A model generated the notes under the pieces. It made no database searches. It was not told the origin of the DNA and saw only the letters and a program-made list of their open reading frames with translations. The position numbers and the translations under genes are program-made. Shown piece after piece: positions 47,382-63,251 of a stretch of 64,000 bases of DNA (position 1 is the stretch's first letter; each line of letters opens with the position of its first letter). The stretch comes from Pelagibacterales bacterium SAG-MED05 (GTDB lineage Bacteria > Pseudomonadota > Alphaproteobacteria > Pelagibacterales > Pelagibacteraceae). The stretch spans positions 1-64,000 of the forward strand of contig JACWDC010000007.1 in NCBI GenBank assembly GCA_014654415.1. Direction: 5' to 3'.

Positions 47382-48076
47382 ATTTTAAATTTAGACTTTT
47401 TACTATCAGCCAAAAAACCTTTAACTGTATCGAGAGTTAATGCTTTGTAGCTTTTACCAAAAGAACTTATTTGATTAATAACTTTTGGAGGCATAGTTAT
47501 AATATTACATTTCAATTGTTTAGCTTGAATAAAATTATAGGCTTCTCTTGTGCTAGCCCAAAGAATTTCAATATTTTTATATTTTTTTGTTAAGGCAATA
47601 CTTTTATTAAATATTGGAATCGGATCTTTGCCTTTATCTGCCATTCTACCTGCAAATATAGATATGATTGATTTTGTTTTAATATTTAAACACTTAAAAA
47701 TTTTTGCCACCTGTTCAAAAGTATATATAGCTGTTATATTTAATTTTATACCTTTGCTGCTTAATTCTCTAATTACTGAACCCATAAAAAAACCTTTTGA
47801 ATTAACAACTGGTATTTTGACATAAACATTCTTGCCCCATTTATTAATCTTGTATGCTTGCTTGAGCATTTCTTTAGGATTATCTGCAAAAACCTCAAAT
47901 GAAATAGGTTTTCTTTTACAAGTTTTTAAAATCTTTAATGAATAATCTTTATAGTTTTTAGCTCCTGAAAGTCGCATTAAGCTTGGATTAGTTGTAAAAC
48001 CATCGACTAAATTTTTGTTATTAAAAAATTTTATAATCTTATAGTCAGCGCTGTCACAAAATATTTTTGTTTTCAT
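47378..48076 (-). CDS. tal: Transaldolase (TalC/fructose-6-phosphate aldolase-like)
   Basis: This short transaldolase-family enzyme has 232 residues. It begins with CDSADYKIIKFF, has DGFTTNPSLMRLSG near residue 25 and the Schiff-base lysine in NVYVKIPVV near residue 87, then ITAIYTFEQV. The family includes transaldolases and fructose-6-phosphate aldolases; a transaldolase role with tkt in the pentose pathway is the likelier one. It overlaps the pntB end by 1 bp and ends FLADSKKSKFKI. A broken copy of that end lies at 45500-45547. Confidence 0.9.
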   Translation of the reverse strand: MKTKIFCDSADYKIIKFFNNKNLVDGFTTNPSLMRLSGAKNYKDYSLKILKTCKRKPISFEVFADNPKEMLKQAYKINKWGKNVYVKIPVVNSKGFFMGSVIRELSSKGIKLNITAIYTFEQVAKIFKCLNIKTKSIISIFAGRMADKGKDPIPIFNKSIALTKKYKNIEILWASTREAYNFIQAKQLKCNIITMPPKVINQISSFGKSYKALTLDTVKGFLADSKKSKFKI

Positions 48077-49479
48077 TAATCTAAATTTTTTACAATATCC
48101 TCTGTCATCTTTTTTGCATCAGCAAATAACATTAACGTATTGTCTCTGTAAAATAATTCATTGTCTATACCCGCATAACCTGGTGATAAGCTTCTTTTTA
48201 CAAATAATACTGATTTACATTTTTCTACATCAAGAACAGGCATTCCAAATATAGGGCTTTTTGGATCAGTTTTAGCTATAGGATTCGTAACATCATTAGC
48301 TCCAATAACAAATGCTACATCTGAATTAGCAAAATCATTATTAATGTCTTCTAATTCAAAAACTTCATCGTAAGGAACGTTAGCTTCTGCCAATAATACA
48401 TTCATATGACCGGGCATTCTTCCAGCCACGGGGTGGATTGCGTAGGTTACTTTAATGTCATTCTTTTTTAACTTATCAACCATTTCTCTTAAGGCATGTT
48501 GTGCTTGTGCTACAGCCATTCCATAACCTGGAACTATTATAACTGAGGATGCATTCTTCATCAAAAAAGCTGCATCTTCTGCATTTCCACTTTTAACGGG
48601 CTTTTTATCTTGTTTGTCTTTTATATCAGGGGAAGAGTTGTCTGCGCCAAATCCTCCAAGGATAACACTTATGAAAGATCTGTTCATAGCTTTACACATT
48701 ATATAAGAAAGAATTGCACCTGAAGATCCTACGAGAGCTCCAGTAATTATTAAGGCGGTATTCTCTAAAGTAAAACCAATACCAGCCGCTGCCCATCCAG
48801 AATAAGAATTAAGCATTGAAATAACAACTGGCATATCTGCACCTCCAATTGGAATAATTAATAAAAATCCAACTAAAAAAGAAATGACAATTACAGTCCA
48901 GAAAAAGCTCTCAGACTGAGATCTGCACAAATAAAATATTAATACAAAAATTGTAATACCCAAAATCAGATTTAAATAATGTTGTCCAACAAATGTAATT
49001 GGTGAGCCAGACATAATTCCTTTTAGTTTTAAAAAAGCTATTATTGACCCTGAAAAAGTTATAGCTCCAACTGCTGCTCCAATAGACATTTCAATTAAGC
49101 TTGCTAGTTTAATCTCTCCTATAGAACCAAGATTAAAAGCTGAGGGATTCAAGAAAGCTGCTATCGCTACAAAAACTGCTGCAAGACCAACGAGACTGTG
49201 AAAACCTGCAACCAATTCTGGCATTGCAGTCATCGGTATTCTAAATGCAATAAAAGAACCTATCGCTCCACCAACAATCAAAAGTAAAAATACATAAATT
49301 ATAGAAGTGGAAAAATTACCTATCGATAAAAATGTAACTGCTATAGCAATTATCATTCCAATGATCCCAAAATAATTACCTTGTCTAGATGTATCAGGTG
49401 AAGATAAGCCTCGTAATGCAAGAATAAAAAGTATTCCTGATATTAAATAAAATATTGCTGATAAATTGGCTGATATCAT
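48076..49479 (-). CDS. pntB: NAD(P) transhydrogenase subunit beta
   Basis: This proton-pumping transhydrogenase subunit of 467 residues has an N-terminal membrane domain of about eight or nine helices (residues 1-270) and a C-terminal NADP(H)-binding domain starting near residue 300 (SVIIVPGYGMAVAQAQHAL, then HPVAGRMPGHMNVLLAEA and VIGANDVTNP). It uses the proton gradient to make NADPH from NADH. It overlaps pntAB by 4 bp, and the three subunits form one leftward operon with transaldolase at its end. Confidence 0.96.
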   Translation of the reverse strand: MISANLSAIFYLISGILFILALRGLSSPDTSRQGNYFGIIGMIIAIAVTFLSIGNFSTSIIYVFLLLIVGGAIGSFIAFRIPMTAMPELVAGFHSLVGLAAVFVAIAAFLNPSAFNLGSIGEIKLASLIEMSIGAAVGAITFSGSIIAFLKLKGIMSGSPITFVGQHYLNLILGITIFVLIFYLCRSQSESFFWTVIVISFLVGFLLIIPIGGADMPVVISMLNSYSGWAAAGIGFTLENTALIITGALVGSSGAILSYIMCKAMNRSFISVILGGFGADNSSPDIKDKQDKKPVKSGNAEDAAFLMKNASSVIIVPGYGMAVAQAQHALREMVDKLKKNDIKVTYAIHPVAGRMPGHMNVLLAEANVPYDEVFELEDINNDFANSDVAFVIGANDVTNPIAKTDPKSPIFGMPVLDVEKCKSVLFVKRSLSPGYAGIDNELFYRDNTLMLFADAKKMTEDIVKNLD

Positions 49480-49787
49480 TTTTTATTATTTTTCTTTTTT
49501 TTGTACATCTGCAGCATTCTTTGGGTAACTAAAAACCCTCCAAAAATATTTATTGCAGCTAAAATAATAGCTAAATAACCAAAAATACTTGATGTATCGA
49601 AAATGTTATTTGATGATCCTGCTAATGCTGCAATTATTGCTCCAACTATAATTACAGAAGAGATAGCATTTGTTACTGACATTAAAGGAGTGTGCAAAGA
49701 TGGGGTTACGCTCCATACAACATAATATCCTATGAAAATTGATAATATAAATATACTTAATCTAAATATAAACGGGTCTATTTCCAC
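49476..49787 (-). CDS. pntAB: NAD(P) transhydrogenase subunit alpha, membrane part
   Basis: This is a 103-residue membrane protein with four hydrophobic segments, the separate C-terminal half of PntA found in alphaproteobacteria. FIGYYVVWSVTPSLHTPLMSVTNAISSVII near the middle is the family signature; the N-terminus PFIFRLSIFILSI precedes it. It overlaps pntAA by 1 bp and pntB by 4 bp. Confidence 0.95.
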   Translation of the reverse strand: MEIDPFIFRLSIFILSIFIGYYVVWSVTPSLHTPLMSVTNAISSVIIVGAIIAALAGSSNNIFDTSSIFGYLAIILAAINIFGGFLVTQRMLQMYKKKKNNKK

Positions 49788-50884
49788 TATTCAATCTCCT
49801 TAATTAAAGTTTTTACAATAATCTCATCTTCCATATTGATATCAAAATCTTTCTTTTCCTTATTGTATAAATTCCTAATAAAACTAAATAAATTTTTAGC
49901 ATAAAGACTTGAAGCAGTTAGAGGTAATCTGTTCATAAGATTTTTAACTCCAATAACTTTAACTCCATTAACAATATTAATTTTTCCCACTTCTGAAAAA
50001 GCGGAATTCCCTCCTTGTTCAACCGCAAGGTCATAAATAATTGACCCAGGTCTCATTAATTTTACTAATTCTTCGCTTATAATTCTCGGAGCAGGTTTGC
50101 CTGGTATAAGAGCTGTGCATATAACTATGTCATTTTTTTTAAGAGCATCTTTCATCATTTCAGCTTGTTTTTTTTTAAAGTCTTCACTTGCTTCTTTCGC
50201 ATAACCACCTTCGGTTTCTAAATCTTCTGATTCTTTAACTGTCAAAAATTTACCACCTAAACTTTCAACTTGCTCTTTTGATGTCGCTCTTACGTCTGTA
50301 GCTGAAACTATAGCGCCTAATCTTTTTGCAGTAGCTATCGCTTGTAAACCAGCTACCCCGGCACCGATAACTAAAACTTTTGCTGCTGGTACTGTCCCAG
50401 CTGCAGTCATCATCATTGGAATTGCTTTTTCAAACTCGTAGATGGAATCTACAACTGATCTATAGCCTGCAAGATTTGATTGGGAAGATAAAACATCCAT
50501 TGATTGTGCTCGTGTTATTCGTGGCAATAATTCCAATGAAAAAATATTAATATTTTTTTTTAAGATCTCTTTAAATTTAGTCTGATTTTTTGAAGGATTT
50601 AATATTCCAATTAAAATAGTTTTATCTTTTAAATTAAAAATTTCTTCATTTGAAGGACAGTTTACTTTTAGTAATAAATTACAATTATTTAAAACTTCTT
50701 TTGATGAACTTTTAATTTCCACTCCAACTTTTTTATATTCTTCGTCTTGAATTCCAATATGAGTAGCATAATCATTTTCTATACATATTTTTAATCCAAG
50801 ATTAATTATATTTTTTGCTGTTTCAGGTGTAATAGAAATTCTCTTTTCTAATGATAAATCTTCTTTAATGGAGCCTACTATCAT
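49787..50884 (-). CDS. pntAA: NAD(P) transhydrogenase subunit alpha, NAD-binding part
   Basis: This soluble NAD(H)-binding subunit of the transhydrogenase has 365 residues and an alanine-dehydrogenase-like fold. Motifs are EKRISITPETAKNI near residue 13, LLPRITRAQSMDVLSSQSN near residue 138, AAGTVPAAKVLVIGAGVAGLQAIATAKRLGA near residue 165 (nucleotide loop GAGVAG) and ICTALIPGKPAPRII. Together with pntAB and pntB it makes the split alphaproteobacterial enzyme. It starts 18 bp after rpmJ ends. Confidence 0.96.
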   Translation of the reverse strand: MIVGSIKEDLSLEKRISITPETAKNIINLGLKICIENDYATHIGIQDEEYKKVGVEIKSSSKEVLNNCNLLLKVNCPSNEEIFNLKDKTILIGILNPSKNQTKFKEILKKNINIFSLELLPRITRAQSMDVLSSQSNLAGYRSVVDSIYEFEKAIPMMMTAAGTVPAAKVLVIGAGVAGLQAIATAKRLGAIVSATDVRATSKEQVESLGGKFLTVKESEDLETEGGYAKEASEDFKKKQAEMMKDALKKNDIVICTALIPGKPAPRIISEELVKLMRPGSIIYDLAVEQGGNSAFSEVGKINIVNGVKVIGVKNLMNRLPLTASSLYAKNLFSFIRNLYNKEKKDFDINMEDEIIVKTLIKEIE

Positions 50885-51409: not shown

Positions 51410-52192
51410 TTAAAAAATTAAATTTTTCAATATAAGTTTTAATTTCAATTTAAATATGAAAAATTTTAATCGTCTAGTTTGAAAATTTTTAATAAATGTT
51501 AATTTATTTCTTCTTAACCAATAGTTGTATTCATTAAGATAAAGCTTAAGATTTTTTTTCGAAAAATTGTTCTCATGTGTTCTGTAGGTAAGCAAAGGCT
51601 CATTAATCATATAAAATTTATGGAAATGACTAAGCTTAATGAACAAATCAAAATCTCCAATTATTTGAAATTTATTGTTAAATCTATACTTCTTGAAAAT
51701 ATGTTTTTTAAGCATTATTGCGCTTATACCTACTATATATTTGTCAAGCAATTGTTGAGTTGAAATACTTTTAAAAAAATTTTTTTTTTCGTTAACCTTT
51801 TTCTTTTTTGTTTTTTGATTGTAAATATAATATTTAGAAAAAACTACATCTGAATTTTCCTTATTAAATTTTGCAATAAATTTAGATAAGAAGTTTTTAT
51901 TCCAATAGTCATCGGTATCTAAAAAACATATAAAATTTCCCCTTGTTTTTTTAATTGCTTTGTTTCTTGCATGATAAAGTGGAAACAATCTTTTTGAATA
52001 AAAATATCTAATTCTTTTATCCTGATATTTTTTTATAATTTTTTTGCTATTATCATCAGATTTGTTATCCCAAAATATAAGTTCCCAATTATGATAGTCT
52101 TGTGCAAAAATACTATTCAAACTATTGATCAAATACTTTTCACCATTATGACAGTTCATAATAATGCTTACAAGAGGAAGCTTTTTTTTCAT
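51410..52192 (-). CDS. Glycosyltransferase family 2 protein
   Basis: This 260-residue protein has a GT-A fold with the start VSIIMNCHNGEKYL, the motif ELIFWDNKSDDNSKKI near residue 37 and the metal-binding FLDTDDYW near residue 93. It would add one sugar to a growing surface polysaccharide on the cytoplasmic side. It is the last gene of the leftward glycan cluster and lies 8 bp downstream of the APS-kinase-like gene. The donor and acceptor sugars are unknown. Confidence 0.88.
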   Translation of the reverse strand: MKKKLPLVSIIMNCHNGEKYLINSLNSIFAQDYHNWELIFWDNKSDDNSKKIIKKYQDKRIRYFYSKRLFPLYHARNKAIKKTRGNFICFLDTDDYWNKNFLSKFIAKFNKENSDVVFSKYYIYNQKTKKKKVNEKKNFFKSISTQQLLDKYIVGISAIMLKKHIFKKYRFNNKFQIIGDFDLFIKLSHFHKFYMINEPLLTYRTHENNFSKKNLKLYLNEYNYWLRRNKLTFIKNFQTRRLKFFIFKLKLKLILKNLIF

Positions 52193-52200
52193 TAATGATT

Positions 52201-52608
52201 TTAAATAAATTTTTCTAAAAATATTTTAGCCCACAATTTATAGTTTTTTGAAGTTACTCTTAAGTTATATTTTTTAGGTTTTTTAAAAATTCTATTCATT
52301 CTAGGGTATCGGCTTTTTTTAATTGTATCCATCCAAATGATTAAGTGTGGTTTAAAAATTTTTCTCTGTTCGTGATGCGGGCATACAAAGTCAGCAATAA
52401 CAAATTTTTTTTTAGATTTATTTGCTAATACTTTCATTCTATTTACTTGTCTAATTATCCCTGTTTTGCTGAAATCCCAATCATTGTACTTGCCTCGAAC
52501 TTTGTCCGCATTAAGCCATTTGGCTCTTAATTTTTTTGTTAAATTTTTAGCTAAAGTAGTTTTACCTGATCCAGGTAAACCCATTATTAAGATTTTTTTA
52601 ATTTTCAT
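52201..52608 (-). CDS. P-loop kinase, adenylylsulfate-kinase-like
   Basis: This 135-residue protein has a Walker A GLPGSGKTT (residues 9-17) and continues LNADKVRGKYNDWDFS, then RQVNRMKVLANKSKK and FVIADFVCPHHEQR. These match the core order of APS kinase (CysC: NAD, R, DW, RM, A-D-F). It is much shorter than usual CysC (about 200). It overlaps the SDR gene by 11 bp. Since a sulfotransferase gene is three genes upstream, a role in supplying PAPS is attractive but unproven; phosphorylation of another small molecule is possible. Confidence 0.65.
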   Translation of the reverse strand: MKIKKILIMGLPGSGKTTLAKNLTKKLRAKWLNADKVRGKYNDWDFSKTGIIRQVNRMKVLANKSKKKFVIADFVCPHHEQRKIFKPHLIIWMDTIKKSRYPRMNRIFKKPKKYNLRVTSKNYKLWAKIFLEKFI

Positions 52609-53557
52609 ACAATTTATCTTTTTTCTTTAGTAATTTTATTTCAAAATTTATTGTTGATGATAGAGATTTAATAAAGTTTTTTTTTGGTTTCCACCCAAGT
52701 AATTTTTTGGCCTTATTTATATCTGGATAAAATTTTATAAACTCTTCTTTTCTCATTTCTATCTTTCCAAATTCTGGTTTACCTTTTTTAATTAGTGTAC
52801 TTATCCTTTCTATCACCGATCTTACTTTTATAGGTTTGCCTGATCCAATATTAATAATTTCACCCAAAACTTTTTTAGATTTAAGTATTTTTTCCATAGC
52901 ATTAATCACTTGCTCAATATCAATAAAATCTCTTAATTGCTTTCCATCTGAGCATGGAAAAATTTTGTTTGCCAAACAAGATTTAATTATAAATGGGATA
53001 ATTCTATTTGAATCCTGCCCTTTTCCATAAACTTGATAAAGCCTTACTACGGCACAAGGGAAATTATTTTTTTTAAATTTCTTAATTAAGTAATTAGTTG
53101 CTAAGTATTTTGGTCTTCCATATATTGACTTGGGATTACATTGAAAATGTTCTTTATGTGGAGATTTAATGCTTTCATATTCAGCCCCGCTACCTATTTG
53201 CAAAAATAATTTTATCTTTTTGTCTGAAAAAATTTTAACTAAATTTTTACAACCAAGAAAATGCGTATTATAATTACCTACTTTATTTTTATGATCTACG
53301 TATCCTCCTAAATTAACCACATAATCAAATTCTTTATTTATTTTTTTTAAAGATGATTTTGAATTTAAATTTCCTGTTAGATATTTAACTTTTTTAAGTT
53401 TTCGTAAATTTTTTGGCTTTTTAGTTGAAAATGAAGTTACATTCCAACGTAAACTTAAACATTTTTTTGCTAAGTGATAGCCTATAAACCCTGTTCCACC
53501 AATTATTAAAATCTTAGATTTTACTTTTTTTTCCATGGGGCTTTTTTTTCTTTCCAT
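52598..53557 (-). CDS. NAD(P)-dependent sugar epimerase/dehydratase (extended SDR)
   Basis: This is an extended short-chain dehydrogenase of 319 residues. The nucleotide loop is IGGTGFIGYHL near residue 18, the catalytic serine region is LQIGSGAEYES near residue 122 and the Tyr-x3-Lys pair is YGRPK near residue 148; RDFIDIEQV near residue 210 is typical. In CDP-dideoxyhexose clusters the last step is a 4-keto reduction by an SDR of this kind (RfbJ-like), which fits here. The first ATG overlaps rfbF by 37 bp; the ATG at 53538 or close to it, giving MEKKVKSKIL, may be the true start. Confidence 0.8.
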   Translation of the reverse strand: MERKKSPMEKKVKSKILIIGGTGFIGYHLAKKCLSLRWNVTSFSTKKPKNLRKLKKVKYLTGNLNSKSSLKKINKEFDYVVNLGGYVDHKNKVGNYNTHFLGCKNLVKIFSDKKIKLFLQIGSGAEYESIKSPHKEHFQCNPKSIYGRPKYLATNYLIKKFKKNNFPCAVVRLYQVYGKGQDSNRIIPFIIKSCLANKIFPCSDGKQLRDFIDIEQVINAMEKILKSKKVLGEIINIGSGKPIKVRSVIERISTLIKKGKPEFGKIEMRKEEFIKFYPDINKAKKLLGWKPKKNFIKSLSSTINFEIKLLKKKDKLYEN

Positions 53558-54216
53558 AAATCAGAAAGGACTTTTTTATCTCTCATGGTATCCATGCATT
53601 GCCAAAATCCATAATGTTTGTAAGCCATTAATTGTTTTTTTTTTGTTAATCTATTGAAGGGTTCTCTTTCAAGCATAATTTTATCACCCGAGATAAAATT
53701 AAATATTTTATAATTAAAAATAAAAAAACCTCCATTAACCCAATTGTTTTTTAATTGAGGTTTTTCTTTAAATTTCTTTACTCTGCTTCCTGAAATATCT
53801 AACTCTCCAAATCTGGCTGGAGGCCTAACTGCTGTCAAAGTGGCTATTTTTTTATGCTTTTTATGAAAACGGTAAAGTTTTTTTAAATTTTGATTTGTCA
53901 AGCCATCTCCATATGTGACAGAAAAAATTTCATTTTTTTTGAAATATTTTTTTAACCTTAATAGTCTTCCTCCTGTTAAAGTTTCTTTTCCTGTATAAAC
54001 ACATTTGATTCTTTTTTTATTTTTATAAAATCTTTCTAAAAATTCTTTCTTATAACCAGTGGCAAGAATAAAATCTTTAAATCCATAACTTTGATAAAAT
54101 TTTATTATATGTTGAACCATTGGTGTTTTTCCAATTTTTATCATTGGTTTTGGAATAAGTTTTGTTTCCTCAGCTAGTCTAGAACCCAAACCTCCACACA
54201 AAATTACTACTTTCAT
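53521..54216 (-). CDS. rfbF: Glucose-1-phosphate cytidylyltransferase (RfbF-like)
   Basis: This enzyme of 231 residues would make CDP-glucose from glucose 1-phosphate and CTP. The start is VVILCGGLGSRLAEET and IPKPMIKIGKTPMVQHI, followed by ETLTGGRLLRLKKYF near residue 77, VTYGDGL, PPARFGELD and the C-terminal APWKKK, all RfbF-like. It is about 25 residues shorter than usual because the stretch between FLERFY and the TGGR motif is short. A second, related nucleotidyltransferase lies at 61123-61893. Confidence 0.88.
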   Translation of the reverse strand: MKVVILCGGLGSRLAEETKLIPKPMIKIGKTPMVQHIIKFYQSYGFKDFILATGYKKEFLERFYKNKKRIKCVYTGKETLTGGRLLRLKKYFKKNEIFSVTYGDGLTNQNLKKLYRFHKKHKKIATLTAVRPPARFGELDISGSRVKKFKEKPQLKNNWVNGGFFIFNYKIFNFISGDKIMLEREPFNRLTKKKQLMAYKHYGFWQCMDTMRDKKVLSDLWKEKKAPWKKK

Positions 54217-54220
54217 AAAT

Positions 54221-55318
54221 TTATTTTTTTGATCCTATTGAATAAGGGAGTTTTTTATTTTGTATTGTAAATTTATTAAATAAAAAAATTCTCATAAAAT
54301 AAAATATTGGAATTGACAATATTTGTTTCCATCTTAGATGCTTAAAAGTATTTTTCCAAACAAGTAATTCACATTTCATGGGTAAAAAATTAAAATATAT
54401 TTCTTTTCTTGAGAACATAAAGTCATAATTGTAATTTTTAATCATTCTTGATGTTAAAAATTGAAAAAATTCTAAATCCCTATTAAAAAAAAAATTTTTA
54501 TCAATATTAATCTTAAAATTTTTATTCACTCCAGAAATCCACCTTTTACTAGCTTTATCGCCCCACCATTGTAATCCAAGCTTGGTCGATGATTTAAGGC
54601 ATTTTTCATATTTTATTTTGAATATTTTGCAAAACTTTCTCATCACGTATTCGTTTTCCCAATGTAATTTTTCATATTGAAGTACGTAAACTTTTTTTAA
54701 TTTCATTAAATCAAAAATACCATTTAAAACTAAATCTAATTGAAAATATAATTCTCTGGGGAAAAAACCACTGCCATTTTGGTAAGTTAGCCAAGTTTTA
54801 ATCGGAGAATTAATTGAAGCCATAGGATGGCGAATAATATGAATAATTGATGTATTCTTTGATTTTATAGTACGCACAAATTCTTTTGTCCAACTCACTA
54901 AATGAGTATGTATAAAAAGAATTTTCTTTTCACATTTTTTATCTCCTTTCGCAATTGAATATGATATGTGTAAATTTTTTATAATATCAATTTTGCTTGT
55001 TTGATTTTTTTTCATCAATTTTGAAAAATTTTTTATAAATTTTTTTTTATTTACCTTAAAAAATTTATTTCTATTTTTACCTAAACGATCTTGTCTTTCA
55101 AACCTGCCCCAAAAACCTTTGGAATTAAAGTAATGAGGATACAAGCTAATAAATCTTTTTGAAATCTGATCTGGAGAATTTAAGTTCAACATTTCCTGAA
55201 AGCTTTTGTTAATTCTTAAATAACCTGGAAATGTTAATACTTGTGAGTGACCATCAAGTAGACCTTGAAAGAAATCTGAGCCACCCCTTCCACCTGCAAC
55301 CAGTAAAACAATTTTCAT
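54221..55318 (-). CDS. Sulfotransferase family protein
   Basis: This 365-residue protein has the two sulfotransferase PAPS sites: an N-terminal loop VAGGRGGSDFFQGLLDGH (5'-phosphosulfate site, from residue 7) and IIHIIRHPMASINSP near residue 170 (3'-phosphate site, Arg and Ser). It would transfer sulfate to a sugar or lipid hydroxyl. The C-terminus is basic with a hydrophobic stretch (SIPIFYFMRIFLF) that may touch the membrane. It sits 4 bp upstream of rfbF in the glycan cluster, close to an APS-kinase-like gene. Confidence 0.78.
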   Translation of the reverse strand: MKIVLLVAGGRGGSDFFQGLLDGHSQVLTFPGYLRINKSFQEMLNLNSPDQISKRFISLYPHYFNSKGFWGRFERQDRLGKNRNKFFKVNKKKFIKNFSKLMKKNQTSKIDIIKNLHISYSIAKGDKKCEKKILFIHTHLVSWTKEFVRTIKSKNTSIIHIIRHPMASINSPIKTWLTYQNGSGFFPRELYFQLDLVLNGIFDLMKLKKVYVLQYEKLHWENEYVMRKFCKIFKIKYEKCLKSSTKLGLQWWGDKASKRWISGVNKNFKINIDKNFFFNRDLEFFQFLTSRMIKNYNYDFMFSRKEIYFNFLPMKCELLVWKNTFKHLRWKQILSIPIFYFMRIFLFNKFTIQNKKLPYSIGSKK

Positions 55319-55333
55319 AGATAAGAAATGAAT

Positions 55334-56290
55334 TTATAAATTTGATTTATTAAATGCTTTAATCATTTTTTGCAGAAATCTCACTGAGTCCTTTGGGTGC
55401 TTTCCTACAGCCGTTTCTGCTGCTAATACAAGTCCTGCTGCTCCCATTTCTAAAGAATTAAATATATCATTTGCCTCTCCTCTAGTCGGGTAGTTATTTT
55501 CCAGCATACTTTCTAGCAAATTTGTTGCTATATAAATTTTTTTAATTTTATATTTTTCTTTTAATTTAAATAAACTTCTTTGAACAATTGGTATATTTTC
55601 TATGTTGACGTCCTTTGATAAATCACCTCTATCTATTAAAAATTGATCACCATATTTCAAAATTTCTTTAAAAGATTTAATAGCATTTTTTGTTTCAATT
55701 TTAAAAATTTTATTTTCATTTTTTAATAGATGATTGAATTGAATTATATCTTTAACAGAATTTGTAAATGATAAAGCATAATTTTTAATTTTTAGTTTTT
55801 TTCCAATTTGAATTGCTTCAAGGTCTTTTGCCGTTAAATAGTTTAACTTAATCTTTCTATTTACTAGGTGCACACCTTTGTTGTTTTCTAAATACCCAGA
55901 AGATATAACTTTACATAAAGCATGTTCATTTTTCTCTATTATTTTTACAGAAAGATTACTAAAGCCTATACTAAGAATATCCCCTTTCTTTAAATCGTTT
56001 AGAACATATGCAGGATAAAGTTGTATATTTTTTTTTTTGCCGAAGATATAAAATTTTTGATATTCTTTAAAAAATTTTTTCTTTTTAGTTTTAATTCTTA
56101 TTTGCGCACCTTCTGTATCAATACAAATTGGAACAGTGGAATATTCTCTAATAAAATTAATTGATTTTTCCAATTTACTTAAAGATAGATGAGACATGTT
56201 TAGTCTGAGGAGATGTATTTTTTTATTTGAAAATTTAAGAAATTTTTTATTTAGACTTTGCGGTCCTAATGTACAAATTATTTTAACCAT
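55334..56290 (-). CDS. Pyruvate-kinase-like protein lacking the C-terminal domain
   Basis: This 318-residue protein follows the pyruvate kinase barrel: KIICTLGPQS at the start, LLRLNMSH near residue 28, DTEGAQIR (DxKGPxIR in true kinases), then IFKIETKNA (catalytic lysine), FLIDRGDLSK and IATNLLESMLENNYPTRGEANDI with AAETAVGKHP near the end. The C-terminal regulatory domain is absent (usual length about 470) and the K to E change in DTEG is unlike working enzymes. It lies between a sulfotransferase and an RmlC-like gene, so a glycan-related role, perhaps with a phosphoenolpyruvate-like compound, is inferred. Confidence 0.75.
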   Translation of the reverse strand: MVKIICTLGPQSLNKKFLKFSNKKIHLLRLNMSHLSLSKLEKSINFIREYSTVPICIDTEGAQIRIKTKKKKFFKEYQKFYIFGKKKNIQLYPAYVLNDLKKGDILSIGFSNLSVKIIEKNEHALCKVISSGYLENNKGVHLVNRKIKLNYLTAKDLEAIQIGKKLKIKNYALSFTNSVKDIIQFNHLLKNENKIFKIETKNAIKSFKEILKYGDQFLIDRGDLSKDVNIENIPIVQRSLFKLKEKYKIKKIYIATNLLESMLENNYPTRGEANDIFNSLEMGAAGLVLAAETAVGKHPKDSVRFLQKMIKAFNKSNL

Positions 56291-56299
56291 AAAACTTTA

Positions 56300-56734
56300 T
56301 TACCATTTATAATTAAATTTTTGATCGGAGTGATCTTTTCGTACCATCTCTTTTTCATTATGTGGAAGACTAAGACAATTGGCTATGATAGACTCAGGCT
56401 CATAAAATCCCTTAAAACCATTCCATATATTAGGGGGGATGGTGACTAAGAAATAATTTTTTGGTGAAAGACTAATCTCTTGATATTTGCCTTTAGTAGG
56501 ACTTTCAGATCTTTCATCAAACAAAACTAATTTTACAGAACCCTTTATACAAGCATAATTTAATGTGGCCTCCTTATGTAAATGCCAAGCTTTAATAGAG
56601 TCTTTATGAATAGTAGAAAAATAGATCTCACCGAAAGACTTAAATATTTTACTATCATTTCTCAACATATGCATAACGCTTCCTCGATTATCTGACAAAA
56701 TTTTAAGGGATGTTATCTTTACATCATGTATCAT
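56300..56734 (-). CDS. RmlC-like sugar epimerase/cupin (dTDP-4-keto-rhamnose epimerase family)
   Basis: This 144-residue cupin resembles RmlC-type 3,5-epimerases: LSDNRGSVMHMLRND near residue 13 (RGS block), AWHLHKEATLNYACIKGSVKLVLFDER with the catalytic histidine near residue 52, and IPPNIWNGFKGF near residue 99. It is shorter than RmlC (about 180). In a CDP-sugar cluster such an epimerase could turn a D-4-keto sugar into the L form, as in ascarylose synthesis. The substrate is inferred from context. Confidence 0.75.
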   Translation of the reverse strand: MIHDVKITSLKILSDNRGSVMHMLRNDSKIFKSFGEIYFSTIHKDSIKAWHLHKEATLNYACIKGSVKLVLFDERSESPTKGKYQEISLSPKNYFLVTIPPNIWNGFKGFYEPESIIANCLSLPHNEKEMVRKDHSDQKFNYKW

Positions 56735-56737
56735 AAT

Positions 56738-57733
56738 TTAAATTTTTAAAAATAACCTTATTTTTCTATTAATAAAATAAATTATAGATAACCAAGCATT
56801 AGGAAAAATTAAGTTGTTAAAAAAGTGCCTTCTAAAATTTATATAATTTAAGCCCATTTGTTCTCCATAAAAAAAAATTTTAAAAAAATAATTAAAAAAA
56901 TTTCTTAAAGCATAATTCTTGTTTTTGATGTATTTAAATAAACTAAGTCCTTTGCTTCTATAATAATCTAAGGCTTCTGGTATTCTAACAATTTCAACCA
57001 TTGGATAAAGATTACTCCACTCTCTAACTCCATGTAAACTAACGGTAAGTGGTCTTGCGCAAAAAAATGCATCAGATTTAGAAAATGCAGCACAAAATAT
57101 TTTAATAAAAAAACAAGTATTTTCAAAGTTTGACCATGTTCGAACATCTTTAATCAATTTTTTGTCTATTACATTCTGATGTCGATTCCATTGATCTCTA
57201 CGAAAAACACAAACAAATACACCCAACAAGTAATCGAATGAAATTTTTCTATCTATTAAATCAAAAAATTTAAGTTTTTTATTTTTTTTTTGTGGTGAAT
57301 GTCTTTTCATTTTTTTTGGAAGATTTTTTGTATTGAAGGGATAATTAAATTTTTTCAAATAGTTTTTATTTAAATAGTAAGAGTTGATCCAAAAAAATTC
57401 ACATTTTTTATTCTTTTTAATTATATTTTTAAGGGTTTTAATCCCATCTCTCACAATTAAATCATCATCACCCAAAAACCATATAAAATCTCCTTTAGCC
57501 ATATTAGAAACTTTTAATAAATTTAAAGCAAAGCCTAAATTTTTTTTATTTTTATTAAATCTTATTTTTAACTTTTTTTTAAATGGGTGAATTAATTTTT
57601 GAATATTTGCCTTGGAACAATTATCAGATATACAAACTTCAAATTGTTTTTCTGTTTGAAGTGACAATGAATTCAAACAATTAATTAAGGTACTCGGCCT
57701 ATTGTAAGTTGGTATGCAAATAGAAATTAACAC
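56738..57733 (-). CDS. Glycosyltransferase family 2, abequosyltransferase-like
   Basis: This GT-A enzyme has 331 residues with the start SICIPTYNRPSTLINCLNSL, then FEVCISDNCSK and the metal motif FIWFLGDDDLIV near residue 86. The type is that of RfbV-like transferases that add 3,6-dideoxyhexoses. The C-terminus (about residues 255-331) is rich in aromatic and basic residues and may bind the membrane. It lies directly behind the dehydrase gene (57734), which would make its donor sugar. Specificity is inferred from context. Confidence 0.82.
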   Translation of the reverse strand: MLISICIPTYNRPSTLINCLNSLSLQTEKQFEVCISDNCSKANIQKLIHPFKKKLKIRFNKNKKNLGFALNLLKVSNMAKGDFIWFLGDDDLIVRDGIKTLKNIIKKNKKCEFFWINSYYLNKNYLKKFNYPFNTKNLPKKMKRHSPQKKNKKLKFFDLIDRKISFDYLLGVFVCVFRRDQWNRHQNVIDKKLIKDVRTWSNFENTCFFIKIFCAAFSKSDAFFCARPLTVSLHGVREWSNLYPMVEIVRIPEALDYYRSKGLSLFKYIKNKNYALRNFFNYFFKIFFYGEQMGLNYINFRRHFFNNLIFPNAWLSIIYFINRKIRLFLKI

Positions 57734-58903
57734 TTATTTAAAATAAATTGGTCTGGCGTATTTTTTAAAATTTTTGCAAATAAAGTCAATATCCTTTGAT
57801 GATAAATTTGCGTGATTTGGTAAATATATTCCATATTTGTCTATAAACTCTGCATTAGGTAATGAAGGTTTATTTTTTATTTTTTTAGACCAAAATGGTT
57901 GCTGACCCATATTTCCACAAATTAATGGTCTAGATTGAATTTTTTTTGATTTTAGATATCTAAATACTTGTAGCCTGTTTTTAACAAAAGTAGCAAAACC
58001 AAAACTTGATATCAATTTTAAATTACTATTTTGCTTCCAAAAATCTTTTAAGTTTTTTTTATACCTTTCAAAATTTTTGTGCCTTATTTTGGAAATCTTC
58101 TTAATTTTTTTTAATTGTTCTATTCCTAAATTTGCATTAAAATCTGTAGATCTAACATTTAAACCTGAATAATAAAAAGTATATAAAGATTTAAATTCAT
58201 CAACTTTAAATTTTTTTTCTAATTTTTTTTTAAATTGCTCTTGTACATCACGCGCCCATCCATGTGATCTTATGGCAAGTAAAATATTATAAAAATTTCT
58301 ATCACTTGTTGAAACCATACCTCCTTCAATTGTAGATATATGGTGGCCATAGTAAAAAGAATGTGAACTTGCCATACCAAATGTTCCTAAATTTTTATTT
58401 TTAAATCTACTCCCCAAACTTTCACAATTATCTTCTATTAATTTAAAATTATATTTTTTCTGAAGATTAAAAATTTTTTTAAAATTATTGCTATGGCCCA
58501 GTACATTGACAACGACCGCTAGGCCCGGATTATATTTTTTACAAATTTTTTCTAAGTTTCGTGCAGATAAGCCGAGATCGTTTTCATCACAATCACATAG
58601 GATAACTTTATATCCTAGTTGTAAAAATGGACTAACACTTGTTGCCCACGAAACCGCTGGTAAAACTACTACTTTATTTTTTAAATAATTACCCTCTAAA
58701 AGAGCTTGTGCAATTAATAAATTTGCTGATGAACCTGAATTAACAAAAACTGAAAATTTTGTATTTAAATATTTGGAGAATTTTTCTTGGAATTGATGTG
58801 TTAATTTTGACTGATTAAGGTATTTTCTTTCTTTAAGAAAGTTTATCATTTTTTTATAGTCTTTATTGTCTATTGTATTGTCTGCTAGTTTAAATTCTTT
58901 CAT
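57734..58903 (-). CDS. PLP/PMP-dependent sugar 3-dehydrase (ColD/RfbH-like)
   Basis: This DegT-family protein of 389 residues has the aminotransferase fold, but the usual Schiff-base lysine is replaced by histidine in SFYYGHHISTIEGGM (His187-His188). That swap is the hallmark of 3-dehydrases such as ColD and RfbH/E1, which remove the 3-hydroxyl of 4-keto-6-deoxysugars. The four cysteines for the iron-sulfur cluster of RfbH/E1 are absent in the RSHGWARD region, so by this and by length it is closer to the cluster-free ColD type. It follows the aminotransferase gene with no gap. Confidence 0.85.
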   Translation of the reverse strand: MKEFKLADNTIDNKDYKKMINFLKERKYLNQSKLTHQFQEKFSKYLNTKFSVFVNSGSSANLLIAQALLEGNYLKNKVVVLPAVSWATSVSPFLQLGYKVILCDCDENDLGLSARNLEKICKKYNPGLAVVVNVLGHSNNFKKIFNLQKKYNFKLIEDNCESLGSRFKNKNLGTFGMASSHSFYYGHHISTIEGGMVSTSDRNFYNILLAIRSHGWARDVQEQFKKKLEKKFKVDEFKSLYTFYYSGLNVRSTDFNANLGIEQLKKIKKISKIRHKNFERYKKNLKDFWKQNSNLKLISSFGFATFVKNRLQVFRYLKSKKIQSRPLICGNMGQQPFWSKKIKNKPSLPNAEFIDKYGIYLPNHANLSSKDIDFICKNFKKYARPIYFK

Positions 58904-60055
58904 TTAGATACTCTTACTTTCATCAAATTTTTTTAAACAGTTTATAATATAGTTTATTTTTTTATTTTCTAAGTTTGGAAAAAAAGGAAGAGAAACTATT
59001 TCCTTCCAAATATGCTTGGTATTTTTCAAGCTTTTGTCATCATATGCTTTATAAAGTTTATTCATTGGTAGCGGAACAAAATGAACTGCCGTACTTATTT
59101 TTTTTTCTTTTAAAAAATTTATTAACTCATCTCTATATTTTGTTTTTATTGAAAAAAGCCAATAAGAACCATTTTTAGTGTTATAAGGAAAAACAGGTTT
59201 TATATAATTTAAATTTTTAATTCCTATTAAATATTTTTTAAGTATTAAGTTCCTCTTTTTATTAAATAAATTAATTTTACTTAATTGTGCTAAACCCACT
59301 GATGCCGTTAGATCATTCATATTATACTTAAATCCTAAGTTTTCAATTTCATACTTCCAATGTTTAGAATAATTTTTTTTCTTTTTAAAAAACATTAAAT
59401 GTCTCTCCCAAGGATCTTTATTCCAACCATGAAAGCTTAAGGATTTTAACTTTTCATATTTTTTTTTATCATTCAAGCAAATCATGCCACCATCACCAGT
59501 TGTAATAATTTTTTTTTCTTCAAAACTGAAACATGAAATATCTGACCAGGTGCCAATTTTTTTTCCTTTATAAATTCCACCACAGCTTTCTGCGCTATCT
59601 TCTATTAGTAATAATTTTTTCTTTTTCGCCCAAGGTTTTATTTTTTCCATTTGGGATGGGTGACCTCCCATATGAACACAAATCAATGCAACACAATCTT
59701 TAGTATATTTTTTCTTAAGATCATCAAAGTCGATAGTTAAATCCTCTTTTCTAATATCAACAAACTTTGGTTTTAGGCCACAATATAATGCAGCAGCCGC
59801 TGTGGCGCTAAATGTAATTGTTGGAACTAGAACTTTTTTATTTTTAGGAAAATTGCAAGATAAAAGAGCTAAATGTAAAGCTGCTGTTCCAGAATTTACA
59901 GCAACAGCATATTTTGTACCAATAAATCTAGAGAATCTTTTTTCAAATTTATGAACTTGAGGTCCATACCCTATCCACGACTTATTAAAAACTTTTTTGA
60001 TATTATCTAATTCTTCTCTACCAACCCAAGGTTTAAATAATCTTATTTTTTTCAT
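58904..60055 (-). CDS. DegT/DnrJ/EryC1-family sugar aminotransferase
   Basis: This 383-residue PLP enzyme has the family motifs VNSGTAALHLALL near residue 55, LIEDSAESCGG near residue 155 and the cofactor lysine in SFEEKKIITTGDGGM near residue 182. It would transfer an amino group from glutamate to a keto sugar nucleotide. It sits between CDP-glucose 4,6-dehydratase and the 3-dehydrase, so a CDP-4-keto-6-deoxyglucose product could go either to a 4-amino sugar or on to 3-deoxy sugars. Exact substrate unknown. Confidence 0.87.
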   Translation of the reverse strand: MKKIRLFKPWVGREELDNIKKVFNKSWIGYGPQVHKFEKRFSRFIGTKYAVAVNSGTAALHLALLSCNFPKNKKVLVPTITFSATAAAALYCGLKPKFVDIRKEDLTIDFDDLKKKYTKDCVALICVHMGGHPSQMEKIKPWAKKKKLLLIEDSAESCGGIYKGKKIGTWSDISCFSFEEKKIITTGDGGMICLNDKKKYEKLKSLSFHGWNKDPWERHLMFFKKKKNYSKHWKYEIENLGFKYNMNDLTASVGLAQLSKINLFNKKRNLILKKYLIGIKNLNYIKPVFPYNTKNGSYWLFSIKTKYRDELINFLKEKKISTAVHFVPLPMNKLYKAYDDKSLKNTKHIWKEIVSLPFFPNLENKKINYIINCLKKFDESKSI

Positions 60056-60058
60056 TAA

Positions 60059-61123
60059 TTATATAAAATATTTTTTTTGATAATTGTTAATTTGTTTAAA
60101 CGATAGCTCTATTAATTTTTTTTTGTTTTTATTTTTATAAAAAAATTTATACCAATCAAAACTTAGAGCCAGAGCTTCTTTAGATTTTAAATGAGTTTTC
60201 CATTTTAATAATTTGGTCACTTTAGAACTATCTAATGATAAATGTTCGGACTCATATTGCCTTTTTGAAATAAATTCAATTTTTGACTTCGAGTTAAGAT
60301 ATTTTTTTCCAAATCTAGCCACATCTATTACCCTCATATTATTTTTAATATTTGGTCCAAAGTTCCACGCTCCAACGAAACTTTTATTTTTATATAATTT
60401 TTGGGCTAATTTAAGATAGCCAAATATTGGTTCGATAACATGCTGCCACGGTCTTGAGGCTTCAGGGCTTCTTATAAATATTTTTTTATTGAATATAAAT
60501 GACTCTGCGCAGTCCTTTACTATCCTATCTTTTGTCCAATCACCTCCACCAATACAATTACCTGATCGTACAGTCGCTATTTTACAATTGCTATTTCTGT
60601 AAAATGATTTGATGAAACTGTGAGTTATAACTTCACAAGATGCTTTGCTACCACTGTAAATATCATAACCCCCGAGATGATCTCCTTCTTTAAATTTTTT
60701 TCTTTTTTCCAAATTTAAATAAACTTTATCAGTAGTCACTATAAGAACTGCTTTAACACTTTTACAGCTTCTAATAGCTTCTAGAATATTTGCTGTTCCT
60801 ATAATGTTAGCTTTAGTCGTGCCAAGTGGATCTTTATAGCTTTCTAATACACTTGATTGGGCTGCCATGTGAAATATAACTTCAGGTTTAATTTTATTTA
60901 TTGATTTGGTCAGTTTATTTAAGTTTAAAATATCATTTCGTATATCTTTTTTAAGAAAACTAGAAAGTTTAAGTCCGTCAAAAAAATTAGGTTTTGAAAT
61001 AGGATTTAAAGCGTAGCCGTATATTCTTGCTCCAAACTTACTTAATATTAAAGTCATCCAGCTTCCTTTAAAGCCAGTATGTCCAGTTATTAATACTTTT
61101 TTATTTTTCCAAAAATTTTTCAT
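60059..61123 (-). CDS. rfbG: CDP-glucose 4,6-dehydratase
   Basis: This is an SDR enzyme of 354 residues that makes CDP-4-keto-6-deoxyglucose. It starts FWKNKKVLITGHTGFKGSWM (loop GHTGFKGSW specific to this enzyme), then FHMAAQSSVLESYKDP near residue 85, TTDKVYLN near residue 127 and the catalytic Tyr-x3-Lys pair in DIYSGSKASCE near residue 150. RPWQHVIEPIFGYL near residue 225 is also diagnostic. It lies between the aminotransferase and a nucleotidyltransferase gene; the 1-bp overlap with the latter suggests coupled translation. Confidence 0.92.
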   Translation of the reverse strand: MKNFWKNKKVLITGHTGFKGSWMTLILSKFGARIYGYALNPISKPNFFDGLKLSSFLKKDIRNDILNLNKLTKSINKIKPEVIFHMAAQSSVLESYKDPLGTTKANIIGTANILEAIRSCKSVKAVLIVTTDKVYLNLEKRKKFKEGDHLGGYDIYSGSKASCEVITHSFIKSFYRNSNCKIATVRSGNCIGGGDWTKDRIVKDCAESFIFNKKIFIRSPEASRPWQHVIEPIFGYLKLAQKLYKNKSFVGAWNFGPNIKNNMRVIDVARFGKKYLNSKSKIEFISKRQYESEHLSLDSSKVTKLLKWKTHLKSKEALALSFDWYKFFYKNKNKKKLIELSFKQINNYQKKYFI

Positions 61124-61893
61124 TAATGTAATAAATTTTTTTTTATCTTTTTAACTTTTGAATAAATTTTATTTTTTATTTTTTTATTCAAATTTTTTAT
61201 GTCTTTTTCATTGTCTACTGAATGCCAAAATCCATTTATTTCTTCAAAATTTGTATTATTTTTTTTTATTATTTTTGGGTAAAACTCTTTTTCAAAATTA
61301 TTATATAGTCTAAAATTTTTTTCAATTAAATTGGCCTTTATTATAGAAATTCCAGAAAAAATATGTCCTAAAAAATTTCTTCTTTTATTAGCTTTTACAG
61401 AATTAAACTCAAGATCTCTTTCAAAACTCGCTACCTTTTTTTTTAAAATACCAACTACACCATAGCTTAAAGGAGCAGCACATCCTAGAAAAGTAATATC
61501 AATGTCTTTATTGTAATGTTTGGTTAATATTTTCTTTAGATTAAAATCAAAAATAGCATCACCATTTAATAGAGTAATATGATTAGATTTAATTTTTTCT
61601 TTAACATTAAATATTCTTTTAGAAATACTTGAATTTAAACCTGTGTTAATTAAATCAAAGTTTAATTTTTTTAGATCTTTATCGTTTTTAATATATTTTC
61701 TAATTTGATTACCTTTATATCCTAACGGTAAGATAAAATGATTTATTGAATTTTTTTTAAGTGCTTTAACAATATACCAAAGAATAGGTTTATTATGTAT
61801 TTTTACCAAAGTCTTAGGTATTTTTTTTCCGAGATTACCTAACCTAGTACCTCTTCCGCCGCAAAGAATAATAGCAGATTTAATTTTTATCAT
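61123..61893 (-). CDS. Sugar-phosphate nucleotidyltransferase
   Basis: This 256-residue GT-A-type nucleotidyltransferase starts AIILCGGRGTRLGNLGKKIPKTLVKIHNKPIL (nucleotide loop GGRGTRLG and Lys for the sugar phosphate), and has LLNGDAIFDF near residue 108 and GFWHSVDNEKD near the end, which resembles the last part of RfbF. It overlaps rfbG by 1 bp and may be the working CTP:glucose-1-phosphate transferase of that pathway, or make another nucleotide sugar. The nucleotide is not decided by sequence alone. Confidence 0.8.
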   Translation of the reverse strand: MIKIKSAIILCGGRGTRLGNLGKKIPKTLVKIHNKPILWYIVKALKKNSINHFILPLGYKGNQIRKYIKNDKDLKKLNFDLINTGLNSSISKRIFNVKEKIKSNHITLLNGDAIFDFNLKKILTKHYNKDIDITFLGCAAPLSYGVVGILKKKVASFERDLEFNSVKANKRRNFLGHIFSGISIIKANLIEKNFRLYNNFEKEFYPKIIKKNNTNFEEINGFWHSVDNEKDIKNLNKKIKNKIYSKVKKIKKNLLH

Positions 61894-61896
61894 ATT

Positions 61897-62514
61897 TTAT
61901 TTAATCAATTTTAAAATTTCTTCAAGATTTTTTATACTATTTTTAAATTTCTTTTTATAGTTTCCATATCCATAACTCGTATATATAAAGTCCATTTTAG
62001 CATTAACTGCTGCCCTCTGATCTACTAGCATATCTCCTACATAACAAGTTTCTTTATTAGTTAGAGATAGTTTTTTTAATGCTCTATTAATAAGTTCTGG
62101 ATGTGGCTTACCTCTATAACTGCTTGATGGAGAAAATGAATGTTTTATTGGTAATTTGAAAGATCTAATAATTTTTTTTGTTCTTGATTTGTCTTTAGAT
62201 GTAACAACGCAGATTTTAATTTTTTTATTTTTTAAGATATTTAAAGTTTTTAAAACATTTTTATAAAGAGCTATTTTCTTTAAATTTTTTATTGATGAAG
62301 AGCTATAAATATTCTGAATTTTTCTATGATTATTATTTATTTTAAGTTTAAACAAGATCTGTGTAAAAGGTAATCCTATATATTTAAAGTATTCTTTGAA
62401 AGATTTCTTAATCCCAGTTTTTTTTTTTACTTGAGACCAAGCTAAAGACATATTTTGTTTGGAATCAATTAAAACACCATCTAAGTCAAAAATTATTGCT
62501 TTATATTTTTTCAT
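61897..62514 (-). CDS. HAD-family hydrolase (phosphoglycolate phosphatase-like)
   Basis: This 205-residue phosphatase shows the HAD motifs: I in IIFDLDGVLIDS (Asp10 and Asp12), II in CVVTSKDK near residue 100, III (Lys) in RGKPHPELI near residue 134 and IV in YVGDMLVDQRAA near residue 158. It may dephosphorylate a sugar phosphate for the glycan cluster, for example a Kdo- or heptose-like intermediate, since it overlaps the KdsB-like gene by 1 bp and precedes the nucleotidyltransferase. Substrate unknown. Confidence 0.82.
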   Translation of the reverse strand: MKKYKAIIFDLDGVLIDSKQNMSLAWSQVKKKTGIKKSFKEYFKYIGLPFTQILFKLKINNNHRKIQNIYSSSSIKNLKKIALYKNVLKTLNILKNKKIKICVVTSKDKSRTKKIIRSFKLPIKHSFSPSSSYRGKPHPELINRALKKLSLTNKETCYVGDMLVDQRAAVNAKMDFIYTSYGYGNYKKKFKNSIKNLEEILKLIK

Positions 62515-63251
62515 TAATAAAGCCGTCTAAAGTTATCTTTAGGCATTAATTTTTTAGCTTTTTTAAGATCTTCATTAACATCTACAGCAAAGCTTCTGCT
62601 TTTTATTATAAAAGTACCAATTGAAAAATCATTTTCTAGAGCTCTGAGCAATTCTACTCCTTCTATGCTCTCTAAATTACTCTTTTTTAATTTAGCGAAT
62701 GCACCTAGTTTTTTAGGTTTAAAAGAAATTATTGAATAATGTTTTAAGAAAAGATTATTTTTTTTACTGTATTCATAGGGGATATTCGAACGACTAAGGT
62801 AGAGAATTCTATTTTTTTTAGATTTTATTACCTTAACAATATTTTTTTTTTGGTTTTCTTTTTTTGATGAAATTTGAGAAGGCAAAACAATATCAAAATT
62901 TTTGTTTTTCAAATGAAATGTTACCAATTTGTCAATATCTTTAGGTGATACAAATGGTTCATCTCCTTGAATATCTATAACTAATTTGCTTTTAAATTTT
63001 TTTGATACCTCCGAGATTCTCTCCGTTCCATTACTATGCTGGCTGGAAGTTAAAACTGCTGTTCCACCGTTTTCCTCTACAATCTTTTTAATCTTTGTGC
63101 TATCTGTGCATACAATTACCTTATCAATTTTTTTTGATAACATGACTCTTTTGAAAGTATGAACAATCATAGGAATTCCATCAATTTTTATTAAAGATTT
63201 TTTTTCTAACCTTTTTGAGTGGAGTCTCGCGGGTATAAGACCTAATATCAT
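62514..63251 (-). CDS. CMP-Kdo synthetase-like cytidylyltransferase (KdsB family)
   Basis: This protein of 245 residues matches KdsB: LIPARLHSKRLEKKSLIKIDG at the start, VIVCTDSTKI near residue 45, SNGTERISEV near residue 73 and VIDIQGDEPFVSP near residue 90, then YLSRSNIPYE. KdsB activates Kdo with CTP for lipid A core synthesis. Here it lies in the variable glycan cluster, so it may activate Kdo or a related 3-deoxy sugar acid for the surface glycan. A housekeeping kdsB may exist elsewhere. Confidence 0.85.
   Translation of the reverse strand: MILGLIPARLHSKRLEKKSLIKIDGIPMIVHTFKRVMLSKKIDKVIVCTDSTKIKKIVEENGGTAVLTSSQHSNGTERISEVSKKFKSKLVIDIQGDEPFVSPKDIDKLVTFHLKNKNFDIVLPSQISSKKENQKKNIVKVIKSKKNRILYLSRSNIPYEYSKKNNLFLKHYSIISFKPKKLGAFAKLKKSNLESIEGVELLRALENDFSIGTFIIKSRSFAVDVNEDLKKAKKLMPKDNFRRLY

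Follow-up and report, generated by a model that had tools for sequence, protein, structure and literature searches.

The gene at 55334..56290 on the minus strand of the window (the whole 64,000-nucleotide stretch of DNA analysed here) encodes a short pyruvate-kinase-like protein, and its homologues make up a pyruvate-kinase (PK) subfamily that is probably dedicated to sulfate activation. Conserved linkage or fusion of the short PK to sulfate-activation or sulfotransferase genes was found across its loci, and we assign the subfamily with considerable confidence to the formation of PAPS. Regarding its role there, we consider it on balance to be a PEP phosphotransferase that serves this pathway and not glycolysis. 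Its most likely reaction is the regeneration of ATP from ADP, with the choice of ADP as acceptor being an even call.

A short pyruvate kinase in a surface-glycan operon

The gene belongs to an operon of tightly packed same-strand genes that spans 51410-63251 and has intergenic distances between -37 and +15 bp. The source genome, of the SAR11 group, comprises 969 kb and is 87% complete. The operon encodes glycosyltransferases, sugar-nucleotide enzymes, two aminotransferases, cytidylyltransferases, an RmlC-like protein, a sulfotransferase-like protein and an APS-kinase-like P-loop protein, among which the following features are referred to below.

52201..52608, minus strand: short APS-kinase-type P-loop kinase of 135 aa (30.7 bits with Pfam APS_kinase, above the cut-off of 21.1)
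53521..54216, minus strand: glucose-1-phosphate cytidylyltransferase-like, same operon (TIGR02623 269 bits, cut-off 300)
54221..55318, minus strand: putative sulfotransferase-like protein, 365 aa, next downstream after a 15 bp gap (assigned via its L043 homologue)
55334..56290, minus strand: short pyruvate-kinase-like protein of 318 aa, made up of the barrel and lid domains
56300..56734, minus strand: RmlC/FdtA-like cupin, same operon, 9 bp gap (dTDP_sugar_isom 42.6 bits)
57734..60055, minus strand: two DegT-family aminotransferases, same operon
60059..61123, minus strand: NAD-dependent sugar-nucleotide dehydratase-like, same operon (Pfam GDP_Man_Dehyd 2.6e-30)
62514..63251, minus strand: CMP-sugar cytidylyltransferase-like (CTP_transf_3), same operon

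The short PK is a real open reading frame. Its PF00224 barrel was the sole Pfam family matched (164.3 bits, cut-off 30) and the next gene lies 15 bp away, which together indicate that the protein has no C-terminal (PK_C) domain, the part that carries allosteric regulation and tetramer contacts in ordinary pyruvate kinases. The KIE motif with the catalytic lysine was located at K197-I-E199 and the DTEGAQIR motif at residues 58-65. A predicted model (pLDDT 89.6, pTM 0.86, built with six sequences) matched solved pyruvate kinases at Z ~33, with 315 residues aligned at 22-27% identity, and the PF00224 match and this comparison both place the protein in the PK barrel-and-lid fold. The score against the pyruvate kinase equivalog TIGR01064 was 217.1 bits, below its cut-off of 306.4. 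The preliminary description had read the barrel motifs, the KIE lysine and the missing C-terminal domain from the sequence, and had put the gene between sulfotransferase and RmlC-like genes; these observations hold. The product of 54221..55318 had no Pfam match of its own and takes its assignment from a homologue in L043 (10138-11226; phmmer 3e-133), which scored 26.5 bits with Sulfotransfer_3, just below the cut-off of 27. The product of 52201..52608 also matched phrog_10255 'kinase' (2e-29). Transaldolase-like and NAD(P) transhydrogenase-like subunit genes, recognised by sequence, flank the glycan operon (window 47378-50884), and similar genes come after the similar cluster of L145.

Distribution and phylogeny of the short PKs

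Strong PK matches in 197 genomes of the same family were mainly either full-length (~470 aa) or short (frames of 316-344 aa), the latter occurring in 14 SAR11 genomes. A search of the genus found the short PK in 17 of 169 genomes, the window's own and earlier members included. Profile searches yielded three further members among 385 genomes of the class (365-369 bits, the next best match reaching 247) and two among 398 genomes of the phylum. By tblastn against plasmids the short PK was detected on two rhizobial megaplasmids, with the matches listed after these at 32% identity or less. Three contigs with short PKs were recovered from the viral collection by a DNA motif pattern; the window protein alone gave no match when used to search that collection. 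L097 also carries the DNA motif pattern, yet no DTEGAQ open reading frame and no PK match were found in it. Each of the 32 members examined has the motif D(T/S)EGAQ(I/V)R, and in the tree 25 short PKs grouped together with 100/100 support, apart from the full-length PKs and from PK3, a further PK relative described below. On these data the short PKs form a separate, well-supported subfamily of pyruvate kinases.

Sulfation genes around the short PKs

We counted as a sulfation gene any ATP sulfurylase, APS-kinase-like, small HxGH adenylyltransferase or sulfotransferase-like gene. Two loci (L096 and L098) were unparsed by the gene-picking rule, which leaves 30 loci rather than 32, and owing to a masked stretch the script missed L036, where the adenylyltransferase adjoins the short PK. 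With L036 included, a sulfation gene was fused or adjacent to the short PK in 25/30 loci (24/30 by script), lay within three genes in 28/30 (27/30) and was present anywhere in the stretch in 29/30 (28/30); L149 had no sulfation gene by these queries. Adjacency or fusion extended to 8/8 parsed loci from outside SAR11 genomes. In 14 of the 30 loci the short PK directly adjoins an APS-kinase-like gene, and 20 of the 30 have one in the stretch; a sulfotransferase-like gene fell within three genes in 12. The control set consisted of stretches around full-length SAR11 PKs, in which the same queries returned 0/20. At full-PK loci with 1.5-kb flanks, weak adenylyltransferase matches were obtained at 2/56.

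Most queries were themselves drawn from the short-PK loci and so find the locus they came from, and the match at L151 is its own query alone, without Pfam support. For queries fixed before the last eight SAR11 loci, 4/8 of these had an adjacent sulfation gene and 6/8 had one within two genes. At L108 the script took an overlapping open reading frame for the PK, and the order reported for this locus (PK, then sulfurylase) comes from separate inspection. CysN-type matches in the window (+10 genes) and in L147 (+2) were set aside by eye as probable translation GTPases, and their removal left the adjacency counts unchanged.

The tightest form of this linkage is a single open reading frame holding PK and ATP-sulfurylase domains, found in L051/L052, L101, L102 and L107. 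L051 and L052 are two near-identical proteins on megaplasmids of Ensifer adhaerens and Sinorhizobium chiapasense, and the other fusions come from genomes G391, G404 and G669. In these proteins of 718-736 aa the short PK occupies the N-terminal half and ATP sulfurylase the C-terminal half. APS kinase comes next in four of the five fusion records (L051, L052, L102 and L107), that of L102 scoring above cut-off (148 vs 138.7), and the fifth (L101) is followed by a sulfotransferase-like gene recognised by its P-loop, without Pfam support. The sulfurylase half of L052 reached 357 bits with PRK04149 (cut-off 387) and 312 with TIGR00339 (cut-off 323), and though below both cut-offs it clearly belongs to the ATP-sulfurylase family. 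In L107 (7966-10119) the sulfurylase half has lost the RN, GRDH and ISGT motifs and the PK half keeps its own, so the fusion there is not a simple channel of ATP to a sulfurylase.

Separate genes recur in comparable arrangements. In L108 (G696) the PK is followed by a separate ATP sulfurylase and in L100 (G297) by APS kinase, while the phage contig L099, which has a virion structural gene by PHROGs, carries a sulfotransferase, the short PK and a small HxGH adenylyltransferase in this order. The neighbours of SAR11 short PKs are sulfotransferase-like genes (e.g., L039, L041, L042 and L043) or APS-kinase-like genes. The kinase type encoded at 52201..52608 occurs fused to the HxGH adenylyltransferase in proteins that neighbour the short PK in L037, L046, L146, L150 and L152 and lie two genes off in L148. 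Only two of the 22 SAR11 genomes tested had CysD, in both cases on the short-PK contig and 11-13 kb away, with CysN-APS-kinase genes also on that contig, 11-13 kb off. Sulfotransferase Pfam matches exceeded their cut-offs in L039, L041, L042, L099 and L107; the sulfotransferase-like genes of L101, L145, L148 and L151 had no such match, and the gene after the PK in L098 is sulfotransferase-like by P-loop motif only, again without such a match.

Possible origin of APS in SAR11

Among the ATP sulfurylase matches listed, none came from the 14 short-PK SAR11 genomes, and 12 of these gave no CysD match. The small HxGH adenylyltransferase was present in 12/14, as well as in 9/14 genomes without short PK or PK3. 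The window's own genome has an APS kinase on C30 (67 bits) and the following adenylyltransferase.

G000:C4:17108-17473 (L117 1501-1884): HxGH adenylyltransferase, ~125 aa

AprB, confirmed by profile as was AprA, lay within the 1.5-kb flank at 8 of 26 adenylyltransferase loci (a set including L044 and L109-L133), and two more of the 26 had in the flank a 265-aa gene that elsewhere stands between adenylyltransferase and AprB and that we take to be aprM. On one SAR11 stretch (L044 2769-10469) the short PK, an APS-kinase-like/adenylyltransferase pair and aprB-aprA occur together. According to PMC5069961, Ca. Pelagibacter ubique has AprBA and lacks sat and cysDNCHIJ, though Table 3 of that work shows several strains with cysC and cysQ. 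The HxGH adenylyltransferase is thus a candidate for the sulfate adenylyltransferase (ATP sulfurylase) described as missing from SAR11. A search with its profile reached NMN adenylyltransferases (5e-8) and, up to an E-value of 1, picked up no sulfurylase, hhalign against ATP sulfurylases gave a probability of 4.7%, and the L035 protein scored 18.9 bits with the Pfam ATP-sulfurylase model, below cut-off. The fold resembles PPAT/NMNAT (Z ~11), with no ATP sulfurylase among the 50 folds listed. As both sequence and fold are NMN/phosphopantetheine-like, it is the gene context that makes this protein a sulfurylase candidate.

Marine viral contigs (IMG/VR, L173-L252) carry a cassette of sulfotransferase, APS-kinase-like gene and HxGH adenylyltransferase. 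Among the best 80 of at least 589 viral adenylyltransferase contigs, 78 had the APS-kinase-like gene, which as a rule immediately precedes the adenylyltransferase or forms one protein with it (19 fused), and 36 had a sulfotransferase-like gene.

Active-site conservation

We compared 25 short PKs with 57 full-length PKs (30 from SAR11, 26 from others of the class and one from L004). Asp58, Arg65, Lys138, Lys197, Glu199, Thr256 and Glu292 (window numbering), the Arg-x-Asn-x-Ser-His motif and Arg-Gly-Asp-Leu at 221-224 were kept in 25/25 short PKs. Likewise, the equivalents of rabbit Arg73, Asn75, Ser77, Asp113, Lys270, Glu272, Asp296 and Thr328, which we take to be the residues of PEP binding, Mg binding and phosphoryl transfer, were found in all 25. 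The PEP end of the site is, by this conservation, kept, and the short PKs are presumably catalytically active. The equivalents of Arg119 and Lys206, which contact the nucleotide, were also invariant in the 25 sequences.

Two residues separate the groups completely. The lid Asp (rabbit D177), present in 57/57 full PKs, is Phe in 25/25 short PKs (Phe110), and the Ser of the SGE/SAE motif, again in 57/57 full PKs, is Ala in 25/25 (Ala290). Further changes fixed in the 25 short PKs are Glu60, Ala62 and Gln63 in the loop, Asp220 for the Ala before RGD (Asp also in three SAR11 PK3) and Asn257 for the Gln after the catalytic Thr. According to PMC8835810, three residues of the rabbit lid, Arg119, Lys206 and Asp177, make contact with the nucleotide; for Asp177 the contact runs through a water coordinated to the Mg of MgATP. 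In the same work residues 113, 114, 117 and 120 are associated with K+ dependence. The pattern of conservation thus leaves the PEP half intact and the adenosine contacts kept, with the Mg-phosphate side altered. The residue after Phe110 is variable and often acidic in the short PKs, so that the acidic ligand may conceivably have shifted to this position.

The preliminary description had singled out the Glu of DTEGAQIR, where kinases were said to have Lys. The Glu is indeed unusual, but Lys is the E. coli/rabbit type and not the local norm, since 56/57 of the full PKs compared have Gln at this position and 1/57 has Lys. Glu for Lys was accordingly downgraded as the key change, the losses of the lid Asp and the Ser being more telling.

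A second PK lineage beside ATP sulfurylase

ATP sulfurylase (PF01747) was found in just 9 of the 197 SAR11-family genomes, and in three of those nine it is directly followed by PK3, a pyruvate-kinase relative of 441-454 aa. A PK3 profile search of 308 genomes of the class gave two more, both directly after ATP sulfurylase, making 5/5 genomes (three SAR11, two others).

PK3 loci: L048 7403-10199; L049 8081-10422; L050 8936-11723; L138; L139

An APS-kinase-like gene stands in front of the sulfurylase-PK3 pair in G002, G191 and G386. The three SAR11 PK3 all keep the lid Asp and the Ser, and in the tree PK3 is not sister to the short family. It follows that sulfate-activation genes have acquired a PK neighbour from two separate lineages; judged by its sequence, PK3, with an ordinary nucleotide site, would fit the ATP-regeneration account best.

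Possible roles of the short PK

In the account that we favour, a PAPS branch would feed the sulfotransferases of the surface-glycan cluster. ADP released by APS kinase would be turned back into ATP by the short PK, with PEP being spent; the removal of ADP would relieve its hold on PAPS formation, the sulfurylase would be re-supplied with ATP, and PEP would in effect pay for the uphill activation of sulfate. A precedent comes from human PAPSS1 in vitro, for which PMC9885120 describes a PAPS peak practically missing without PK/PEP/LDH and significantly increased with it. The proposed logic is shared, in that PEP and PK remove ADP so that PAPS forms; in that work commercial PK was added, whereas the short PK is a pathway-fused or co-encoded family with an altered nucleotide site. 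We count in favour of ATP regeneration the fusions, the adjacency in 25/30 loci against 0/20, the nearby sulfotransferase-like genes, the CysD linkage, PK3, the PAPSS1 precedent and the invariance of the PEP, metal and phosphoryl residues and of the Arg119 and Lys206 equivalents. Against it we count the degenerate sulfurylase of L107, L149 with no sulfation gene, the self-matching queries and the adenylyltransferase being common in SAR11 anyway. The lid Asp and Ser, lost in 25/25 short PKs and kept in 57/57 full PKs and 3/3 SAR11 PK3, argue against ordinary use of MgADP, and the stretches of L035, L036, L041, L099, L101 and L108, in which no APS kinase was seen, hold no local source of ADP.

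A serious rival is that the short PK is itself a PEP-dependent APS kinase, a non-homologous stand-in for the known enzyme. Its barrel would be re-tuned to APS instead of MgADP and would form PAPS with PEP as the direct donor, so that APS kinase would have arisen a second time; we regard this as unlikely. The kept adenosine side (His77, Lys206 and Arg119 equivalents) and the lost residues of the Mg-bound phosphate are in line with such a change, as is the fusion partner, an enzyme that makes APS. In L099 the short PK takes the place usual for an APS-kinase-like gene, which 78 of the 80 top-ranking viral adenylyltransferase loci possess, although this contig of 10.8 kb may lack the rest of the phage; in L035 and L036 adenylyltransferase and PK occur and no APS kinase was seen. 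Nor did G044, a genome 94% complete, give an APS_kinase match, a silence that is weak given that the search missed a divergent gene known in G084. An APS-phosphorylating short PK would, however, be redundant with the APS-kinase-like genes adjacent in 14/30 loci and present in 20/30 stretches, and pyruvate kinases are known to bind the nucleotide with its ribose 3'-OH pointing away from PEP.

Another role in the same pathway, be it as a regulator or scaffold that binds APS or PPi or in the transfer of PEP to PPi or another acceptor, seems improbable. It would agree with the loss of the Mg-nucleotide residues, with the fixed replacements in 25/25 sequences and with the degenerate state of the sulfurylase domain fused to the PK of L107, but the residues for PEP, Mg and phosphoryl transfer, invariant in 25 diverse sequences, would be needless in a pure scaffold.

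The preliminary description had proposed that the enzyme serves the glycan cluster, which the neighbourhoods of its homologues uphold as we read them, and more specifically that it supports sugar-acid synthesis or pyruvylation. This enolpyruvate role, with PEP used for pyruvylation, Kdo/sialic-acid-like synthesis or phosphonates, we now consider very improbable. It could draw on the CTP_transf_3 gene of the operon, on NeuB-like genes near L101 and L149 (recognised by sequence only) and on PEP mutase genes right beside the short PK in L102 (5716-7386) and L148 (7992-9293). Such genes are confined to few loci and the role was rejected as not recurrent, whereas the recurrent partners of the homologues are sulfate-activation and sulfotransferase-like genes, adjacent or fused in 25/30 loci, including 8/8 outside SAR11.

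A glycolytic pyruvate kinase that has merely shed its C-terminal domain is the reading to which we give least credence, and the doubt expressed about it from the sequence alone proved justified. GAPDH was found in 20/20 and PFK in 17/20 of the stretches around full-length SAR11 PKs (one representative of each Pfam-checked), and neither was found near the short PKs at E 1e-10; of the families recurring around full PKs, just the ABC-ATPase type and PK itself had matches there. Homologues next to glycolysis genes are thus the rule for the SAR11 full-length PKs and not for the short family. A full-type PK is also encoded in 7 of the 14 short-PK SAR11 genomes (a partial match in G018), as well as in G297 and G404. 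On the other side, no PK besides the short one was found in the 87%-complete genome of the window, and the remaining 7/14 genomes show no full PK; gene context, paralogues and the lost nucleotide-side residues led us to reject the glycolytic role.

Relation to known systems

Pyruvate kinase (PF00224/TIGR01064) has the same fold and the same PEP, Mg and catalytic Lys residues, and the short PK differs in missing the C-terminal domain, the lid Asp and the Ser and in its sulfation rather than glycolysis context. NF005234 (PRK06739), a model of a 352-aa short pyruvate kinase, is likewise too short for a C-terminal domain, but the window protein scores far under its curated cut-off (125.4 vs 564 bits). 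With PAPS synthases, CysDNC and Sat-CysC the short PKs share their gene neighbourhoods, and in the fusions an attached ATP-sulfurylase domain with, in most cases, APS kinase next door. We know of no described ATP sulfurylase/APS kinase module that carries a PK domain, and a literature search of titles and abstracts returned no report of PK linked to sulfate activation or in such modules.

PAPS is energetically costly to make, and the known solutions couple its formation to GTP or to the hydrolysis of pyrophosphate. A PEP-driven module, including a PK/ATP-sulfurylase fusion, would if true be a new way to pay for sulfation. For the regeneration of PAPS the fused protein suggests itself as a candidate. 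Databases probably list such genes as pyk, and they would need renaming. These observations also point to sulfated surface glycans in SAR11 and to a phage version of the pathway.
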